Assembly: GCA_010015675.1 (NCBI GenBank)
Contig: ML977009.1
Coordinates: 503,408-515,199, forward strand
Source: Byssothecium circinans
Lineage: Eukaryota; Ascomycota; Dothideomycetes; Pleosporales; Massarinaceae
Length of the DNA stretch: 11,792 bases
Direction: 5' to 3'
The position numbers and the translations under genes were made by a program. This document shows, piece after piece, positions 464 to 11,792 of the stretch (positions are counted from its first letter, which is position 1; each line of letters starts with the position of its first letter). The notes under the pieces were generated by a model. That model made no database searches. It worked only from the letters and a program-made list of their open reading frames with translations, and had not been told where the DNA came from.

Positions 464-817
464 TTTGCGCAAAGCTAGGGAGCAGCGCAAAGACCATGGC
501 AAAGCCAGGGAGCAGCTATGGGAGAGCGGCTGATAGGTTTTGGTAACCTTCAGCCAATCTCACAACCTTATAGTGCAAAGCCAGGGAGCAGCACTGCCAG
601 AGAGCAACTAATACGCAAAGCCAGGGAGCAGCGTACGTGTGCAAAGCCAGGGAGCAGCACATAACCATAGCACGGCCAGGGAGCAGCTATGGGAGAGCGG
701 CTGATGGTCTTAGTGACCTTTGGCTAATCTTAAAACCATGCCAGGGAGCAACTAACCTATTTTGTGCAAGGCTAGGGAGCAGCATAAAACCACGGCACGG
801 CCAGGGAGCAGCTGTGG
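464..817 (+). repeat. Array of eight RNA hairpins with a conserved 14-nt loop
   Basis: Eight units share a loop of the form AAAGCCAGGGAGCA (variants AAAGCTAGGGAGCA, AAGGCTAGGGAGCA, ACGGCCAGGGAGCA) closed by an invariant GC/GC pair of base pairs and then by stems that differ between copies yet pair. Loops are at 471-484, 501-514, 577-590, 617-630, 643-656, 672-685, 768-781 and 797-810. Examples of arms: TTTGCGC with GCGCAAA, CCATAGC with GCTATGG, TACGC with GCGTA, TGTGC with GCACA, CCACGGC with GCTGTGG. The third pair from the loop is C-G, G-U, U-A, C-G, U-A, A-U, U-A and G-U in order. Such compensatory variation means the folded form was selected. Role unknown: packaging signal, Gag or other protein binding, or translation control are the plausible options. 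A further decayed copy is at 889-902. Confidence 0.85.
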
Positions 818-917: not shown

Positions 918-2100
918 ATGTTAGATCAAGAATCAGACAACGAATCAATAGGATATATACTGCGAACTAGAAGGATGTCAGAGGCACGCCCCCATCTAGC
1001 ACTCATTAAGCCGAAGCCCCCACGGAGCTATCTCGATATCTTTGAGGGGAACAATGTGTCAGAATGGCTAGAGGCGTACAACCGTATAGCTCAGAACGCA
1101 GCGTGGACGGATGGGGATAGGCTGCAGATATTACTAGATTAGTGTTTGACGAAGATTAGGAAGATAATAATGCGGTTTCCCTAATTTATAAAGAATGACT
1201 AGGAAGGTGTCCAGAGCAAAATGAAGGACAACTAGGAAGACATGGATATGGGGCGACGCCATGGTACTCGCGCGTACCTTAAGACCTACGTTAATGAATG
1301 CGCAAAATACCCACCGCCTATTACGGAGTACTACACTAACATGTCCGTCTACCTCGCTGATTGCATTGCTGCTGGCCAGGTTATAGAATAGGAGAAAGGG
1401 TAGTATTACTTTCAAGGCCTTAGCTAGCAGGATAAGGAAATGGTGATGTTCTACATGCTAGAATCTAGCCAGCCAAAAGGAGAGACCATCAACACCTACG
1501 ACATGGATAAAATTCACAAATATGTGAAAAGCATAGCAAAGCAGCGTGTTGGCTTCCATAAGCACTAAGAAAAGGAGAGTATTATTGAAGCACAGTAGCT
1601 TAAGAACATGGTCAAGGAGGAGATGGCCTACCAGCCTCTCACGCACTAAGAGCTAACACGCCGTGACGAGCCATCTTCGTCAAAGCTAGAAAAGCCACAA
1701 TCCTCAGAGGTTAACCTGGACTTAGAACATTTAGTCGACTAATTCAAGGGCCTAAATCTAGACGCCGCCTCAGTCTTCCAGCTTGCTGACTAAAGCCACG
1801 TTAAGCCATATCTTCAGGATCCTAAGAACTACGCCTACTTCCTAACTTATCTCATTGGTCCTCGTCGTTAGCAAGAAAGGTTGAGCTAGCAAAATCGCCC
1901 GCCATAGACAAATCAGAGGAACGACGGGTCGTGGTCTGCACAGAAGCAGGGCGACGATCAGCCCCAGCAAGCTTTGCAGTATTTTAGCTGTGGGAGCACC
2001 AATCACGCTGTTAAGGATTGTATAGACCTGCTGGATATTCGCATGCATGGCTAGGCTCACGAAGTAGTTAAAGATAACAACTGATACTGGTACTATGGCC
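918..2100 (+). other. Gag region with CCHC zinc knuckle (first Cys lost)
   Basis: This is the capsid/nucleocapsid part of the polyprotein. Residues 1-60 read MLDQESDNES and onward to the F-E-G-N-N-V-S-E-W-L-E-A-Y segment typical of the start of fungal Gypsy capsid domains. A helical, charged stretch follows (D-W-E-like positions now stops, then K-Y-V-K-S-I-A-K-Q-R). The nucleocapsid zinc knuckle lies at residues 355-368 (1980-2021) and reads Y-F-S-C-G-S-T-N-H-A-V-K-D-C, spacing CX2CX4HX4C exactly, but the first Cys is Tyr. TGT to TAT is a TG-to-TA change, so the loss fits the mutation process. The end of Gag is approximate. It would package RNA, perhaps through the leader hairpins, which is inference only. 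Confidence 0.8.
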
Positions 2101-3221
2101 CACGCGATTCAGGATTTGGTCAGGTTGAAGGGGGACCTGCAAGGCATGGTATCGCACAGTAGCTAAAGAATGCTATTTCTATTAAGTTCAGAGTCCTGAC
2201 AGATGCTATCAAGCAATCCTTCCGCGAGGTATGTAAAGACTGGGCTGCGCGGCTACCCAAGAAGAGCAACTTCGTCGAAGTCGCAAACGTGGATGCTGGC
2301 TGGACGCAGGACGACGCGATAATGCTGATGACTAACTAGGATAAGCAATTCTTCCACCTAGTTAAGGAAGTCTTTAACCTTAATCTAGTGGATAGAAACC
2401 ACATCATTCTCTAACCATGATACGAGGCGTCGCCCGCCCAGCGGCCAGCACCTAGAAATGAAGCCAGGCAGGCTCCTCTAGGCTCTGCCCCGCAAACTTA
2501 AGTTGAAAGATATGAGTAATGAGAGCAGCGTCAGCGCGCTGAGCGAGAAAGAGACCCATTGATTAACTGAATCTAGCGTAGAATCGACTCTAACTCACCA
2601 GAAACCATCCAGCTATTCAAGGACGAAAGCTAATGGAATTCTCCCTTCAACCATACGAACCCACCTCGCATTACTAAAAGAGGAGTGCGGTTTGCGGCAA
2701 CTAATAAGGAATCTATTAAGAACGCTGTTAACATAACTACCAACCAGACCCTCATTGCCGCGCTGACCTAAGAAGTTAAGGGCCTCACTATTAGAAACCT
2801 TCTTACTTACCCCACTTTCAAAAAGCCTCTTTAGGAGCTACTGTAGAAAAGAGCTTCCGAAGATGCCGCTGAACCACACACACAGGCTGGAGTCGCTAAA
2901 ATGAACATGGTTGAAACTTTCTTAAACACGACCGTATACGATGGTCGCCACGGCAATAACTCTAGATTTCTTCTCTAATCAGACGCCGCTAGGTGCACCC
3001 AGCAGCCTCTCATTAGACGAGATGTGACTGATATTACCCTAGTGACTACCGCTAAGCCCACCGCAGGATGTAACGTGATCACGTACTATAGCTTGAATTC
3101 ATCAAGGGCTACCTAAATCAATGGGACTAGTGACCCGTATAATGAAAACTAGGACTAACTGACTAAGGATGACCGCTGCCGGCGCGACAAAGATAGCGGT
3201 TACGTCGTCACGTCAAATAAG

Positions 3222-3530
3222 CTACCACAGGTGTGGGCCGCTATTAACGGTGATTAAGTTAGGTGTCTCATTGACACTAGGTCAATGATTAACCTGATAA
3301 GAGAATTAGCTGCAAATGCCCTGCAACTCCCGTATGAGGTTGGAGATGGGTCTGATGGTCTAATTACGGCCAACGGCCAATAAACTATGTTTGCGGGTAC
3401 CGCATTTGACGTCCCTGTAACTATTGGCTCAGTAATGACGCTCACCCATTTCTGGCTTATCAAATACTTGAGCAGATCCGTCATCCTTAGGGTCCCCTAG
3501 TGTGCCTTAACCTAGATGTCCCTCTAGTTT
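3222..3530 (+). other. Retropepsin-like protease domain, active-site Gly changed to Arg
   Basis: The segment V-W-A-A-I-N-G-D ... R-C-L-I-D-T-R-S-M-I-N-L-I matches the flap and active-site start of retrotransposon aspartic proteases, where the catalytic triplet is D-T-G. Here it is D-T-R at 3273-3281 (residues 786-788). ACTGGG to ACTAGG across the codon boundary, a TG-to-TA change, explains the Gly-to-Arg change. A second hydrophobic strand with I-T-A-N-G-Q and V-P-V-T-I-G-S follows, then F-W-L-I-K-Y-L. This domain would cut Gag-Pol into mature proteins. Apart from the stops, the Arg alone should abolish activity. Confidence 0.8.
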
Positions 3531-4436
3531 AACACTATGGGAAGAATTAGCTGCTAGATTGTTTCCTTAAAAGGAGACCGTGATGTTATGTTCATGGCTA
3601 CCTAGCTAGCTGGTTTGGCTCCCTACTATCAAATGCAGCTGCCAGCCAGTACGGCAATTATTAGGCCGGTGAAAAGAGAGGACCTCGCTTCAGTGGACGA
3701 ACTTACGGAGCGAATAGGCTACCTGTCGTGCAATATAGTGCATTTGAATAAGCCTAAAATCCTAGCGCTAAATTTTCACCTAAGCCTTCCGGCCCAGCTA
3801 GACCGGAAAGACCTTGGGGAATGGGCATGGATTGCTAGCAGGACGAACGGCAGCGATCTTGAGAGCGCCGTGTCAGCCGTCACCGAATATGACGAGCTAA
3901 TGGGCAAAACAGACGCTAACAATAAGGATGAAGCCTATGAGCTTCTTGCCTCTAGCCTGCAGTGATAATTGTAGCGCGCCTCGTAGAGCATGGAATCATC
4001 AGCAATAACACTTGAATTGGCGCTATAACAAGAAAGGCACTTTAAAACGCCTCGTAATGCGCACTATTCTGAGGTGAACACCATGTACAAGCGAGTAGGG
4101 GTGAAGGTTTGGCCTGTTAATGAACTACGACCATCTCAGCCTATAGAGTTTGGGGATCCCTTTTAGAAGAAAACCGCAATCAAAGCATAGCTACTACGCG
4201 ACAGCCTTCGCGGGCTAGATATTGGGCCACACGACCATTTATTTGAAAAGTGACATTCACCTTTTCCTAGAGGAACCCGGCTTACGCTGGAACGAATTAG
4301 GACCATGAATATTAGAGAAGAACTACGGCCATTAGAAAAGGAGATGCTCCTATAAGTGCTACTAAATTGAGAATCAGCCATCATATACACTTTTCATGAA
4401 TCTGGCTGAATTCACCCATCAGTTTCACCACCGTAC

Positions 4437-5270
4437 AAAATCAAAACGAAGCCTCACCAGGCGTGGCAAGTCGGGGCATTTCGACCGCCCAAAAAGCTAG
4501 AAATGGAAGCCACCAAGATGTTCAACGAGCGGATCCAGCGAGGGACGCTGGAAATATGCGATAGCCAGTACCGAAATCCATGGTTCTTAGTCCCTAAGAA
4601 AGACAAAGGATATCAGTTAATTAACAACGCTTAGAAAATCAACTCAGTGACTATCTAGGATGCGAATCTACCACCATGTGCCGACAATTTCTCAGAGAAA
4701 TTTGCAGGGTGCAGCATACTCACTCTCATAGACTATTTCTCTAGGTATGACCAAATAGAGCTCCATGTGGATAGTAGAGATATCACGGCTTTCCATGGAC
4801 CGCGAGGCCTAGTTTGGCAATGCACCCTACCTATAGGAGTCACAAATGCACTAGCAGCGTTTCTGCGGGTAATTATGAAGATGTTGTTTGACCACATACC
4901 ACACGATTGCTTGCCTTTTATCGACGACGTGTGCATTAGAGGCCCGAAAACTGACTACTACTAACAAGAAGCGCTGCCAGGAATTTGGCAGTTTGTCCTT
5001 AAGCACCTCCAGCAAATAGACCGCATTCTCGCGGATGTTGAACGAGCCGGCTTAATAGTCTCAGGAACTAAGTGCTTCTGGGGATTCAAAAGAATTAAGG
5101 TCGTAGGGTACGAGGTTGATTCCGATGGTCGCCACCCTCAGAAAAAGAAGGTCATTAAAATCGTCAATTGGCCTAAATGCAAGAATGTCACTGAAGTCCG
5201 CATGTTCCTAGGCATTTGTGTCTATTACCGAATCTGGATTTTCTGCTTTATGATCGTAGCTAAGCCTCTC
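4437..5270 (+). other. Reverse transcriptase domain
   Basis: The block opens with W-Q-V and proceeds through E-R-I-Q-R-G-T-L-E, N-P-W-F-L-V-P-K-K-D-K-G, and V-T-I-stop-D-A-N-L-P-P. Motif A is L-I-D-Y-F-S-R-Y-D-Q, catalytic Asp at 4731 (residue 1272); the usual Gly after F-S is Arg here (4743), again TGGG to TAGG. Motif B-like L-P-I-G-V-T-N-A follows, then the catalytic F-I-D-D with Asp codons at 4923 and 4926 (residues 1336-1337), intact. Downstream come the G-I-x-F-V-L-K-H-L-Q segment, the connection G-Y-E-V-D-S-D-G-R-H-P and C-V-Y-Y-R-I-W-I, wording I associate with filamentous ascomycete Gypsy elements. It copies the element RNA into DNA. Confidence 0.92.
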
Positions 5271-5387
5271 TTCAAGCTCCTGCGACAAGAATAGGAATGG
5301 CAATAGGAAGACGCTCAGCGAACAGCTATGATCGCACTTAAGGAAGCCATCACTACGGCCCTGGCCCTGGTCAGCCTCGACTATAAA

Positions 5388-5770
5388 GGTAGGGAGGTTT
5401 ACCTTAGTATTGACGCATCAGGTAAAGGTAGTAGAGCGTTAATAGAGCAAGTGGACGCTGACAACAAGTAACACCCAATTCAATTTGAAAGCGTGCTCTA
5501 GTTGATCGATGAAGCTAAATGGGATTCTACAAAATTAGAATGCCGCGCTGTTCTCTAGGCACTAAAAAAGTTCAGAATCTGGCTCTACAGGATTCATTTC
5601 ACTATTGAAACAGATGCTAAAACGCTCATTGCCTAGCTTAACCGCGCGTCAACCGACCTTCCAGGATCTCTCATGAATCGCTGGCTAGGTGTGATTATGA
5701 TGTGGGATTTCACCATTGTATATAAGCCAGGCAAGAAGAATGTCATCCCTAATGCGCTGTCCCGATACCT
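5388..5770 (+). other. RNase H domain
   Basis: Y-L-S-I-D-A-S-G-K-G gives the first acidic residue (Asp codon 5412), K-L-E-C-R-A-V-L-stop-A-L-K-K-F the second (Glu codon 5538), and I-E-T-D-A-K-T-L-I-A the third (Asp codon 5613), the layout of Ty3/Gypsy RNase H. It ends with F-T-I-V-Y-K-P-G-K-K-N ... N-A-L-S-R, the standard tether boundary before integrase. It removes the RNA strand during reverse transcription. At least five stops (for example 5469, 5556 and 5634) interrupt it. Confidence 0.9.
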
Positions 5771-7230
5771 AAAGCCAGAGGGTTGGGAACCACCAAAGGA
5801 AACCTAGGACAATATTAAGGAATTCATCAACTGGACGCTATGTAAAATGATTAAGATAACCTAATTAGCCAGCCAAAACGCAGCCTTCCAATCAAACGCG
5901 GTCTTAACCTTTGTAGGCCTCACTAAGGTCCACACTAAGGATATTGGCCGGGTGTTGGACGACACGTACGGCGTTGAATCTGACCGTATTGCGAGGTTCC
6001 TCCTACGAGGGGAAATACCTAAGGAAGCCTCCTGGAAAGAGCTTAGAGCCTAGAAGAAACACGCCCTCACATTCTATACATCAGACGGAATCCTGTTCAA
6101 GAAGACCTTAAGAAATGTAACCCTAAAATGAGTCGTCGACAATCTAGACATCTAGGCCGCGATTATTATCGCTATCCATGAGCAGATCAGTCATAGAGGG
6201 GCGAATGGGGTTGCCTTAGTAGTGGCCTCAAGATACTAGTAGGAAGGCATTTAGGCATGCGTAATCTAGTTTATCTAGCCCTGCGACTAATGCTAGAGAA
6301 AAGCCTACTATTGGAAACGCGACGCCCTTTATTCAACATTTGCCGTCGTCCTTTAGGATTAGGTCAGCCTTGATGTGGTCTACATGCCAAATGTTAGAGG
6401 ATTTAAATACCTAGTAGTCGCAAGAGAGTAGATGACTAGGTGGCTAGAAGCGCGGGCTCTTAGAAAGAATAACGCTAAATTAGTCGCGAAGTTCATCTAC
6501 GAGGACCTTATTTGCAGGTGGTCCATGGTCAAACGCATTAATATTGATGGCGGGCTAGAAAATAAGGACGTTGTTATTACTCTTGCAAAACTCTATCGCA
6601 TTCGCAGAGTGCAGGCGTCAGGGTATAATCCTTAGGGCATGGGCTTCGTTGAAGGAGGGCACAAAGTTATCATTAACGCGCTCGCGAAACTGAAAGGCAT
6701 ATAGGTTGATAACCTTCCTACTGTCCTTCTGGTAGACCAGGTCTTAGTTCATGAATCAACAGGCTATTCCCTAATACAGCTTATCACTGGCCAGAACCTA
6801 ATCCTGCCGATTAAACTGTTATTACTAACCTAGCAAACGCTGCCCTGGAATAAGGTTCACACCCGCGATAAGCTTATAGCGCTTCGCGCCATACAGCTCG
6901 ATATCCGTGACGCTAATATGGATGAAGCAGCGGCGAAAGTTAAGCGTCTCTGCTAGCGTAAGAAAGAGTACTAGGACGAACACTAGGACATTGTCACTGG
7001 CCGTGCTGAGCGTCACTAGCTTGTTCTACTCAGGAGCATGAAGAAGGAAGTCTCGAAATCAACAGATTATAAACTAGCTGACAGATGGTACGGCCCATTC
7101 TAAGTGCGCGACATCAGCGACCAAGACTAGTACTTTCTCCAAGAACTTGATGGTACTGCCTTCTGGCACCTAGTCCCTAGCCACCGTATTCACCCCTACT
7201 ATCCCCGCACCCAAGAATATATTGAAGCAA
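5770..7230 (+). other. Integrase domain: HHCC zinc finger, DDE core, GPY/F module
   Basis: After a linker, the zinc finger has His codons at 6177 and 6192 and Cys codons at 6282 and 6291, with the usual R-Y-W-W between, both Trp now TAG. The core has Asp at 6372, Asp at 6546 (I-D-G-G-L-E-N-K) and Glu at 6651 (F-V-E), with 57 and 34 residues between them, close to the DD35E pattern. The C-terminal module reads L-A-D-R-W-Y-G-P-F at 7077-7100, then Y-F-L-Q-E-L-D-G-T and H-R-I-H-P-Y-Y-P-R, a GPY/F domain. I see no chromodomain after it. The enzyme joins element DNA to the host genome. All three catalytic acidic residues survive although stops interrupt the chain. Confidence 0.9.
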
Positions 7231-7415
7231 TTGATCGAGGATTTATGAGACTATGGGACGAAGACACATAGCACTTGACACACTAATGGATGGACCCGCC
7301 ACCGGTAGAGGATTTTAGCAAAGAGTTAGTTGATGAAATAGAGGATGGTGACGAAGATAATCCTAATGATCTAGACTCTAAGGAGGATGGCGCGCAACTA
7401 CGCATGGCAGAATGA
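7231..7415 (+). other. Acidic C-terminal tail of Gag-Pol
   Basis: Beyond the integrase the frame encodes about 60 residues rich in Asp and Glu (D-E-I-E-D-G-D-E-D-N-P-N-D-L) and then meets TGA at 7413. It resembles no chromodomain and I assign no function. A shift of one base near 7386 would join it to an open stretch running to 7491, so the tail may originally have been longer. Confidence 0.55.
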
Positions 7416-8262: not shown

Positions 8263-11200
8263 ATGCCCCCGAAGATGATTCCTGGACCTGCTCAGCAGCC
8301 TCAGCAGCAGCAGATCATGGTCAATATTGGCCCTCATTTGACAACCCCCCTTCCCCATGCACGGGAACTCACCCTTGATGAAGCCCTTCAACATATCAAG
8401 GCTCAGTCAGGTAGTGAGCGCTAGGCCGCATATCGCAAGCTAATAGCGCAATGTTCTCTTCATCTAGACAAGAGCCTCAATCTATTTTAGCAGTTAGGAA
8501 AAGAGATAGAAAAGGACAGCGAAGTAATAAGAATCTAGGGCGGCTTGAATCAATTCCATGAGCACCATCCATGGCTAAGGAGCGCGTACGATTCCAGGTC
8601 GGAACGGCATACTGAGTTGGTTAGCGCGCAGAACCAAGTTTAGACCAGCTACAATACTCTAGAAATCTAGTTTCTCTCTAAAGCCCTCCTTCCCTTTAGT
8701 CCTGAAGTGTGGATGCAGCACCAGCTGATGACCCGCCTTACCTACATCGCTCGGCGGAACATGAAGATGTCTGACATCGCGCCCTTCATCAACACGAAGA
8801 TGATCCGGCGCCTTAGGGCAAAAGCTAACGTCACCGCCTAAGACTAAACCATCCACGGCTTAGATTGGGATTTCCCCTATGAGCTAGCCCATGCTCTCTA
8901 ATAGTCGTGGGATAGTAACGCTCTACTTAAAAAGTGCCCTAAGTCCATCATTAACATCTATGATCCAGCCTATGCGTATAACTAGTTTGAAGAAATGACT
9001 AGCGAAGCCACCTCTAGGATGAATAAGCAGAGGTAGCCCCGCCCTTTTATGCTACAAGAAGCCTAGGGGCTATTAGATGATCTGCGAAAGTTCTAACTCT
9101 AGATCTACAAGCGCACTAGCTTGCTCATCCCTGCAACCTATGATTTGGAACAGGAGATCACCAGGTCAGCTGTTAGTGGTGCTGGCAAAATGCTAGCGGA
9201 ATATCCCTACACTTAGGAGCACATTAACCGTGCGATTAACGTGGTTTCTCCGACATCCTCCCCTCGCCTTCAGCAAGCCCAGCTGATGCGACAGTCTCAG
9301 GATGTGCAGACACAATCCCCTGGGTCTCATAGGCGTCGCGCATCTTTAAACGTCACCATGGCAAATGCTCTTCAGGAAATGTTGAAGCCTGACCTAGTAC
9401 GTGGAGTGAGGGAGTACACGGTGAACGCTTTACTAAATGCGCCTACCTTTTACCTAATAAACCTATAAGCCCTATTGCCGCGGGTGACGCGATCTATGGC
9501 TAGGAAAAACCATAAGCATGTGCTCACCGCGGAAAGCAACGGGCTGGCTATCGCGCAGGCTTTAGAGGAAGAGGGTGATGACTTTAATTAAGAGATGGTT
9601 AACAACCTAGACATTAAGGATATTAGGGTTGTTAAGAAGGGGGCGAAGTGTGGCTGTTCCCGGCCTAATTCACTATTGAATCGGGCGCTGAAGAACGCTG
9701 GGCTACGCCGGCGGGCCATGCACAAGGATGAGCTGCACATCCTGACGCTGTACTATAATGAAATCTCTAACAGTCATAAAGTCTATTTCTAGCATGGCAA
9801 AGCCACCGCGAGCTACGTTGGCGTTGCCGTCCGCGCCTTGTCTGAAGAACGTCTGCAGCAGCTCCTCAAGTTGCTATACACGAATCATGACTGGTGGGGT
9901 GATTTCAAGAATAACCCCTAGACATACATCCTCTTCTAGCGTGGCGCCCGTGGATATCGCGACGAGGATTAGCTAAAGAGCTACCGGTTCTTTCCGGCGC
10001 AGTGAAAGTGGTACATGAATTTTGACCGCGTCATCTAGCAATTTGGCATGCAAAGGCAGGTTGCCACCTTCTACAAGACGGGCATGGTGATTATAGGCAG
10101 CATCCTTACCTAGATCTATGAAGACCTAGAGCTTAAGAAGGTGCTTAATAAATTGTATAGCATATACGACTACCACCTGCGGCGCATCTAGGGCAAATCC
10201 AACCTAGGATGGGGCTAGATTATGTACCACTCTCCTATCCAGTAGCTCATTCGTTCTGATCCAGCTTACTAGGTTTGGTATGCGGTTTTGCGAAAATAGC
10301 CCTACTTAATTTCATATCCTTACTATGCCAAATCCACCTCTCTAGGTGACAGCACTGCTTTCAAGCATGTAGATTGTAACCTGGAGGAAGTCTACTATAA
10401 TAGGCACGGCGCTAACATGATTTAAGGGAGTGTGTCCTAGGATGAAGAGGATGAGAAGAACTGCACTATCCTATTTAATAGATTTCACACCTGCCTTGAC
10501 TAGTACATGGCATAGAGGAAATCCCTTAGCTAGACCACCCATGCCTACATTGAGGGCTGGGTAGATGCGCGTGATTAGCCGCCTGAGTTGAATAATCACA
10601 TCAAGCACCTACAGTGGATACGCTACCCTTGCAAACCTAGGTGGGTTCGCATTTTGAAACCAACTATCCCTTACAGCTCAACTAGCCTAGCTACCAAACA
10701 GCGCCGCACCATGCTCCCGTGGTTTGTTCGAGTCTGCGATAACATGAAGCACATAGAGGTTCCAGAAATAGGAACCTATAACAAGATTGCTACAGCCTAC
10801 CGCAATTATACCGCGCCACCTGCTACCCCTTCAGGGCATCTAAACAAGTATGGTGGCATTGACTGGCCCTTCCCTAGTGCGGCGCCTATCTAATGGACCT
10901 TAGTGATTTCACGCGCGTTAGTTTATTAGGAGCGCTGGGATTCTCCCCAAGTCCACCATAAGCTGGCAACATATTTTAGGGATGACATGACTCGTGATAA
11001 GATAAGGGGCTAGATTAAGGAGCACCGCAAAAATGCAAAGAAGGCTGTTCTTGTTAGTTGGGAAGTGTGCAAAGAAGCTAAGTGCATTACTTATAGGCTA
11101 AATCCTGCTAAGGGTATTCCTGATTAGTCTTACTTCTTAACCTAAGGAGCTGGGCCGCCATTAGGCCAGGATGGCAACGTCGCTGACGCGAATGTTACAG

Positions 11201-11337
11201 TTGATTAGGCTGTTAACAGGTTTCTCCGCCTTTGCAGACAGGATCCATTAGAGCGCCGTTAGGCTAAGTTCCACCAGGATAGGATTCCTGATGTGCCTAA
11301 GGAGGAGAATAGCGACGATGATAGGATAGAGATGTGA
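8263..11337 (+). pseudogene. Second large frame of the element, 1024 codons, unknown function, stop-riddled
   Basis: From ATG 8263 (M-P-P-K-M-I-P-G-P) one frame runs 1024 codons to TGA 11335-11337. By hand count it has 32 TAG, 9 TAA and 1 TGA inside and no phase change, so it was an intact long protein before mutation. I recognise no domain. Visible features: a Gln-rich start (residues 8-14); a charged helical first third; H-R-R-R-A-S near residue 353; K-C-G-C-S-R-P-N near 463 and L-R-R-R-A-M-H-K-D-E near 483; a well-conserved-looking aromatic stretch of about 100 residues at 10588-10893 with P-C-K-P-R-W-V-R and L-P-W-F-V-R-V-C; and an acidic end (N-S-D-D-D). No signal peptide or convincing membrane helix is seen, so it is not an ordinary env. 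It lies between Pol and the 3' LTR on the same strand. Possible roles are a structural or nucleic-acid-binding accessory protein or captured host gene. Confidence 0.85.
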
Positions 11338-11493
11338 GACGGTTTGCCTGTAGCAGTTAGAATTTCCTTTCTCTCCTCTTTTCCTTTTGTTTTTCTCTCT
11401 CTCTCTCTCTCTCTCTTTCTTATGGAGTTGATTTTTAGTTGTTTCTTTTTAGGCTATAGCTGAGGAGAATTGGTTTGGTTTGGCTGCAGTATC
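11338..11493 (+). other. 3' untranslated part with a CT tract
   Basis: After the stop of the second frame comes a pyrimidine tract at about 11364-11420 holding an uninterrupted (CT)11 at 11395-11416. The rest (11421-11493) is unremarkable T/G-rich sequence with no frame. Confidence 0.7.
11395..11416 (+). repeat. (CT)11 microsatellite
   Basis: Eleven perfect CT units sit inside a longer pyrimidine tract between the second frame and the 3' LTR. Length is expected to vary between element copies. Confidence 0.95.
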
Positions 11494-11502: not shown

Positions 11503-11745
11503 TGCTGTAGGCATGGGAGGTTATGTGCCGTGGCATAGAGTGACCAATAGCTCAACCTATGGTCACGGGGTCAGGTTAGTATATAGTAGCTAGTTTCAAC
11601 ACCTGCTAGGGACGACGCCATGTATACCACACTCTTTGTTTAGGACAGAAAAGAATACAATTGCTTTAGCTACCAAACACGCGTTCCCTCTACGAATATC
11701 CCATACCGTGAGCCGAATTAGAGTTGTGTGAGCTACGCTGGCTCA
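11503..11745 (+). repeat. 3' LTR, about 243 bases
   Basis: The end at 11745 (GGCTCA) is fixed by the match of 11694-11745 to 1-52. The start is inferred from the polypurine tract: TGCTGTAG at 11503, or TGTAGG at 11506. Because the 5' LTR is mostly outside the window the start cannot be confirmed by comparison. Inside lie a CCAAT box at 11544-11548 and a TATA-like GTATATAG at 11579-11586, a sensible promoter spacing, which would put U3/R near 11610. Confidence 0.75.
11544..11586 (+). promoter_or_regulatory. LTR promoter: CCAAT and TATA-like elements
   Basis: CCAAT at 11544-11548 is followed 30 bases later by GTATATAG at 11579-11586. In the 5' LTR the same elements would drive the genomic RNA. 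Start of transcription is expected about 25-35 bases after the TATA box; this is inferred from position only. Confidence 0.5.
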
Positions 11746-11792
11746 ATTTCTAATTTCTTAGTAAGCTATATTAGTATAGAATAAAGTTACTC
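11746..11792. other. AT-rich flanking DNA
   Basis: The similarity to the 5' LTR end stops at 11745. The remaining 47 bases are AT-rich with no feature. The first four or five bases (ATTTC) should be one copy of the target-site duplication, but the partner is outside the window. Confidence 0.7.

Follow-up and report, generated by a model that had tools for sequence, protein, structure and literature searches.

Eight hairpins with stems of 5–8 bp, GC/GC closing pairs and a 14-nt loop of almost constant sequence stand at positions 463–818 in the leader of a Ty3/gypsy-type LTR retrotransposon of Byssothecium circinans. The hairpins exist beyond chance, and the arms of unlike classes remain complementary despite transversion differences. 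All positions refer to the window, i.e., the whole stretch of 11,792 nucleotides that was analysed, and all features are on its plus strand.

The element and its leader hairpins

The window comprises most of the retrotransposon: the end of the 5′ LTR, a leader of approximately 900 bases, gag-pol, a second ORF, and the end of the 3′ LTR. Positions 1–55 recur at 11694–11748 with 96% identity, and the latter repeat marks the 3′ end of the 3′ LTR; the 3′ end of the 5′ LTR was placed at 1–54, and the window seems to begin inside this LTR. A candidate primer-binding site (PBS; 55–72) starts with TGG immediately after the LTR repeat. Its complement was found, with at most one mismatch, in 11 places of the genome, 10 of them no more than approximately 1.6 kb away from a leader copy; in the 201 bases surrounding the eleventh place, the single stretch examined, a tRNA gene was not found. 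The gag-pol remnant (975–7415; gag, aspartic protease, reverse transcriptase (RT), RNase H, and integrase) is interrupted by TAG, TAA, and TGA codons. Its Pfam matches PF13975, PF00078, PF17917/PF17919, and PF00665 follow the Ty3/gypsy order of protease, RT, RNase H, and integrase, with RT and RNase H scoring above the Pfam cut-offs and the protease and rve matches below them. The search for RT relatives yielded 54, only a few of which carried the name of an organism: Alternaria and Pyrenophora and, as a single weak match, a sea anemone. The CCHC zinc-knuckle pattern was present in Gag at two of the eight loci examined.

Some features of the 3′ part were recorded as side observations. The stretch that separates the second ORF from the 3′ LTR end includes a CT-rich simple repeat at approximately 11392–11418. 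A 47-base segment made up of this end and the sequence that follows it (11746–11792) has a perfect match (100%) in L096 on contig C26, and 35-base matches with 89% identity to the same region were found in L096, L081, and L084; these matches elsewhere indicate that the element has another repeat around it or next to it.

The initial annotation had claimed at least eight hairpins with a common loop and GC/GC closing pairs, and eight were located: H1 (463–492, loop 471–484), H2 (494–521, loop 501–514), H3 (571–596, loop 577–590), H4 (612–635, loop 617–630), H5 (637–662, loop 643–656), H6 (665–692, loop 672–685), H7 (760–789, loop 768–781), and H8 (790–817, loop 797–810). Their stems measure 8, 7, 6, 5, 6, 7, 8, and 7 bp, respectively, when G–U pairs are allowed, and the loop reads AAAGCCAGGGAGCA in four hairpins, ACGGCCAGGGAGCA in two, and AAAGCTAGGGAGCA and AAGGCTAGGGAGCA in one each. 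On the minus strand of the window, there was no motif match with a stem longer than 2 bp. Folded alone, six of the eight hairpins were predicted to form a stem, a 3/1 internal loop, the GC/GC step, and a 6-nt loop CAGGGA; H1 and H7, which have the CTAG variant, were predicted to form the common shape plus one extra inner pair. The predicted fold leaves only GGGA (or AGGG) unpaired, and the full GGAG is unexposed.

Interspersed among the core hairpins is a second hairpin type, absent from the initial annotation, of which there are three examples: S1 (523–563; z −4.0), S2 (694–734; z −3.4), and S3 (819–858; z −2.7). Core motifs without a stem lie at 223–236, 593–606, and 737–750, and a weak core hairpin with a 4-bp outer stem, which folds alone with a z of −2.1, lies at 436–459. 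The core motif at 889–902 was considered as a ninth hairpin and rejected, as its stem was unsupported in the window (z 0.2); the L027 counterpart was a weak match (E 0.18). When the hairpin model R1 was used for searching 23 sequence sources, five of the eight window hairpins were reported; the other three overlap reported neighbours in a 30-base frame, which is our guess as to the cause of their omission. Tandem Repeats Finder gave one short array only (596–656). Larger tandem duplications have taken place inside the array, and the eight hairpins represent five arm classes.

Several comparisons showed that the pairing exceeds what is expected by chance. The leader contains 13 core-like motifs, and in eight of them the stem reaches 5 bp or more; after shuffling of the 3′ arms, the mean number of such stems was 1.54, and eight were reached in none of 100,000 shuffles. 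Beyond the closing pairs, the pairing observed in the eight hairpins was matched by 16 of 100,000 shuffles, and by 67 of 100,000 in purine/pyrimidine code; shuffles sometimes match the observed pairing because sister hairpins have arms in common. With one hairpin taken per arm class (five hairpins), 22 positions were paired beyond the closing pairs versus a mean of 9.0, and 2 of the 120 permutations did as well as the observed arrangement; the corresponding values in purine/pyrimidine code were 25 and 12.2, and the same fraction of permutations, 2 of 120, did as well. Across the whole window, 77 of 11,732 14-nt sites are flanked by a stem of 5 bp or more. When the same 18-nt motif was examined at 102 unrelated sites in viral contigs, 9 had a 5-bp stem, compared with 8 of 8 in the window, and each of these 102 stretches contained a single match and no array.

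A covariation score was calculated from an alignment of 14 of the 162 hairpins, namely the eight of the window and six of the diverged copy L027. The score was 0.559 versus 0.135 in shuffled alignments (reached in none of 500) and at most 0.192 in slid controls; pairs in which both sides had changed at least once were no more numerous in these 14 hairpins than in shuffles (5 vs 4.5; 255 of 500). Single hairpins were moderately stable relative to shuffles (z −0.7 to −2.8), the weakest two being H3 (z −0.7 alone; 48 of 200 shuffles folded as well) and H4 (z −1.0 alone; 34 of 200). For the 481-nt region as a whole, folding gave no gain over shuffles (z −1.2; antisense −1.3).

In all 28 pairwise comparisons of the window hairpins, mean identity was 0.90 in the loops and 0.28 in the arms (pairs 3–7), and the values in purine/pyrimidine code were 0.97 and 0.52, respectively. 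The between-class identity (loops 0.90, arms 0.20; 24 pairs) refers to hairpin pairs chosen for unlike arms. The contrast between loops and arms bears out the earlier proposal that the loop is conserved together with the capacity for pairing and the stem sequence is not, and that the array is no plain minisatellite: in a minisatellite the entire unit is kept between copies, and here it is not. Duplication without selection would preserve loops and arms to the same degree.

Genome copies, RIP-like mutation, and the purine/pyrimidine test

A DNA search of the 48.4-Mb genome (109 contigs) gave 30 matching places, which were resolved into 26 loci (L009–L034), the window included. The number of hairpins per locus ranges from 1 to 15; at least five are present in 22 of 25 loci, and each of four close copies has eight. 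When the window was compared with its close copies L010, L011, L012, and L015, all of the 244 substitutions were transitions, and 190 of them were in CpA/TpG context, where CpA was counted in either sequence, the window itself being mutated. Across the 19 copies compared of 25 (L013, L023, L024, L032, L033, and L034 were left out, and BLAST pieces of less than 60 columns were dropped), 209 of 2231 differences were transversions. The composition of the window was mixed, with a TpA/ApT ratio of 1.07 and a (CpA+TpG)/(ApC+GpT) ratio of 1.21; by the thresholds that we assume for these indices, TpA/ApT alone points to RIP. The copies carry RIP-like C-to-T change, the substitutions in the close copies following the pattern described for RIP (PMC2621366).

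Among the in-frame stops in the protein matches of the element, TAG and TAA predominate and TGA is infrequent. The frames become open when TAR is translated as Gln, which does not amount to evidence for another genetic code. An alternative code with TAG and TAA as Gln was considered and RIP was preferred, the stop numbers varying widely between copies.

RIP affects how changes in the stems are to be read. When it acts on both strands, CA facing TG becomes TA facing TA, which mimics compensation; if one strand alone is hit, G–U or A–C is left and hence a false broken pair. Because RIP both makes and breaks pairs, covariation from copy to copy is no evidence and an uncompensated change is no refutation; covariation among the genome copies was therefore discarded as direct evidence. 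The initial annotation had quoted stem pairs in which both sides changed together. The pairing itself holds, with support from the purine/pyrimidine test described below, whereas the C–G versus U–A and G–U forms lose their weight, since RIP at CpA suffices to produce them. It had also named uncompensated stem changes as a refutation; such changes are present (39 A–C among 750 counted at pairs 1–5), and the rule does not apply where RIP acts.

The purine/pyrimidine code is blind to RIP, as purines remain purines under RIP. In this code, the arms were complementary at pairs 3–5 in 161 of the 162 cores with closing pairs that 25 of the 26 loci contained (L009–L034 were taken and L037 was left out), pairs 1 and 2 being fixed by the core search pattern. 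In 895,834 bases of control sequence, among them viral stretches chosen because they contain the motif, 7 of 24 were complementary. The value of 161 of 162 overstates the evidence, because the copies come from one genome and are kin, and because only three purine/pyrimidine arm types occur at pairs 3–5 of the eight window hairpins. In addition, a broken-paired recombinant unit of L013 still scored as complementary. The test still favours pairing, with few independent arm types beneath it, and the independent evidence is mainly that of the five arm classes within one array. In fungi with RIP, mutation of CpA on both strands can mimic compensation in any palindrome, so that structure tests on repeats should add the purine/pyrimidine code.

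Some loci deviate in their architecture. At L013 (C9:1143700–1145400), the array is expanded to 15 hairpins, and its unit at 952, the arms of which come from different hairpins, has only 2 bp left. L037 (C4 near 816719) is a truncated second leader of the same family, situated approximately 2.3 kb from an oppositely oriented copy; it ends in a loop-to-loop recombinant, in which the 5′ arm of one hairpin is joined to the 3′ arm of another. No comparable array was found in three more distant Ty3 relatives within this genome, represented by the fragments L095–L097, which may miss their leaders, since L095 has no similarity to the window and L096 only matches its 3′ flank. L097 contains a cluster as large as that of the window, with seven arm types, but its 8-nt loops are A+T-rich.

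Proposed function and competing explanations

Our best guess, to which we give somewhat less than an even chance, is that the leader array serves as a multivalent protein-binding RNA platform, with Gag as the binder and selection of genomic RNA as the role. Each hairpin would be recognised through its loop sequence and shape and not through its stem sequence. The sense RNA would display the purine-rich CAGGGA loop, with a short GC step and an internal loop of the AAA/A type beneath it, and many near-identical displays in one RNA could give the protein a high avidity for that RNA alone. With the element's own Gag as the likeliest partner, the array might mark the genomic RNA for particle assembly.

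Both protein binding and Gag as the binder are what we infer. Gag is the first candidate because the array lies between the candidate PBS and gag, because the CCHC pattern occurs at the two loci mentioned above, and because of the analogy with retroviral GGAG motifs. MMTV depends critically on unpaired purines of the GGAG type for packaging and for the binding of Gag, and comparable motifs are listed for HIV-1, HIV-2, and HTLV-1 (PMC8096270). The leader position in an LTR element would fit a packaging or Gag-binding signal, as had been suggested in the initial annotation; the hairpins are placed computationally between PBS and gag, in a region that as a whole is no stabler than shuffles. The predicted exposure of GGGA or AGGG in place of a full GGAG counts against the Gag reading, and so does Ty1 Gag: it has similar affinity for different RNAs, although its own Psi RNA is preferred in competition (PMC8396678). 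It is also possible, although we lean against it, that the array is a multivalent code read by Gag, in which selection acts only on the loop and on foldability, the arms drift in a compensatory manner, and the number of sites tunes packaging.

The possibility of template switching has to be weighed against the platform reading. RT or a DNA polymerase would copy one arm onto the other and duplication would spread the unit, so that pairing would be a by-product with no selected function. Template switching is reported to make perfect stems and multi-base compensatory changes (PMC8794818), and the differences in array size between loci, as well as the chimeras recombined within the loop in L037 and at 952 in L013, are in keeping with it. 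The purine/pyrimidine count weighs little against it, as that count scores the L013 chimera as complementary. On the other hand, template switching predicts nothing about the loop, whereas loops are 90% and arms 28% identical, and recombination in the loop breaks stems, as in the 2-bp unit of L013, yet all eight window hairpins are matched. We consider this explanation unlikely, but a serious one.

The leader could also control translation, its structure allowing ribosomes to enter internally or to shunt to gag. There are 16 upstream ATGs between 73 and 974, which makes simple scanning to gag look unlikely, and the presence of two kinds of local hairpin likewise suits a structured leader of this sort. 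A shunt, however, does not need a constant loop repeated eight times, and we regard translation control as quite unlikely, though still to be reckoned with.

Alternatively, the ligand of the hairpins might be a host RNA-binding protein or the protein of the second ORF, acting in export, stability, or escape from silencing. The second ORF remnant (8263–11337; 1024 codons) is conserved, as the whole protein has six homologs with 29–37% identity, and its N-terminal half is without a family assignment; no homolog was found for the N-terminal 580 residues, full-length relatives being beyond the length limit of that search. The Pfam matches of the six homologs (E ≤ 0.1) include no RNA-binding family, and weak evidence makes the C-terminal half resemble an enzyme more. 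Matches to PhyH were below the Pfam cut-off in three of the six homologs (best E 0.022), and one homolog had a match to methylphosphonate hydroxylase (E 0.099). The pattern HxD ... PHG ... T..RR is invariant in the six homologs, the window copy being without the second His; we take this pattern to fit 2-oxoglutarate/Fe(II) dioxygenases. Structural comparison with two low-confidence models (mean pLDDT 46.9 and 51.2) yielded no match that could be used. From its sequence, the second ORF may end in such a dioxygenase, mainly in the codons from 10015 on; an RNA demethylase domain has been described in orchid Ty3/gypsy elements (PMC9289625). On balance, a host or second-ORF ligand appears improbable.

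Still another explanation, which we judge very improbable, places the function in the DNA; the hairpins would then belong to a downstream enhancer, as palindromic binding sites for transcription factors or as cruciforms. The palindromic repeats of Sirevirus LTRs have been discussed as DNA cis-elements (PMC2829016), and RNA and DNA are not separated by the pairing data. In the decayed copies, 67 G–U and 39 A–C were counted at pairs 1–5 with one position left out, and this excess of G–U is uninformative because the closing C always precedes A and is hence a target of RIP. In H3, H4, and H5, family-level A–C mismatches also occupy the very ends of the stems, and the comparison of G–U with A–C was discarded as a proof of RNA on account of these mismatches and the RIP context. 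A sequence-specific dimer could not read sites in which the arms vary and the 14-nt spacer is fixed; the cruciform form of this explanation may still hold. The RNA form is likewise what we infer, from the sense leader position, the fixed spacer with free arms, and the common predicted fold.

That the hairpins are chance products of a tandem repeat and no real feature is hardly credible: the duplications that reduce them to five arm classes speak for it, and the covariation score, the arm shuffles, the purine/pyrimidine count, and the 9 of 102 viral-site stems disfavour it.

Comparison with known systems

Rfam gave no match at E ≤ 1 for positions 1–1000 of the window, and no such array was described in the titles and abstract openings of the top-ranked open-licence papers on retrotransposon leader hairpins and packaging. 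The earlier statement that no described motif is like this one agrees with both searches within these limits. We class the array as a predicted leader RNA structure of a retroelement and not as a packaging signal.

Known retroviral packaging signals consist of one or a few unlike stem-loops. The array shares with the retroviral GGAG/purine packaging signals, such as the ssPurines of MMTV (PMC8096270), the location in the 5′ leader, G-rich purines (here predicted to be unpaired) on a stem, and a CCHC pattern in Gag. It differs in having eight copies of one loop on unlike stems, and Gag binding would here be assumed by analogy. With the 5′ genomic RNA of yeast Ty3 and Ty1, it has in common a putatively functional structure near the 5′ end of an LTR retrotransposon RNA, whereas a hairpin array is not mentioned in the excerpts of PMC11381356 and PMC8396678. 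The sequences that select genomic RNA are poorly defined in fungal LTR elements; in Ty3, for example, the cis-acting packaging sequences are not precisely defined (PMC11381356). A repeated, separable hairpin would make the recognition between Gag and RNA testable with short RNAs.

Like the CsrB-type RNAs that sequester CsrA (PMC5027483), the array would use many sites in one RNA for binding many protein molecules, but those are bacterial small RNAs, and the sequence considered here is a leader without an Rfam match. Clustered palindromes in an LTR element are shared with Sirevirus, in which one conserved palindrome is repeated (PMC2829016). In the present array, no single palindromic sequence recurs in every box; the arms differ from hairpin to hairpin, with five arm classes among the eight. 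Phage coat-protein operators are hairpins that are read through loop and shape and that occur as single or dispersed sites. Although there is no relation between the two, the array would resemble these operators in being read by loop and shape, and it differs from them in being repeated.
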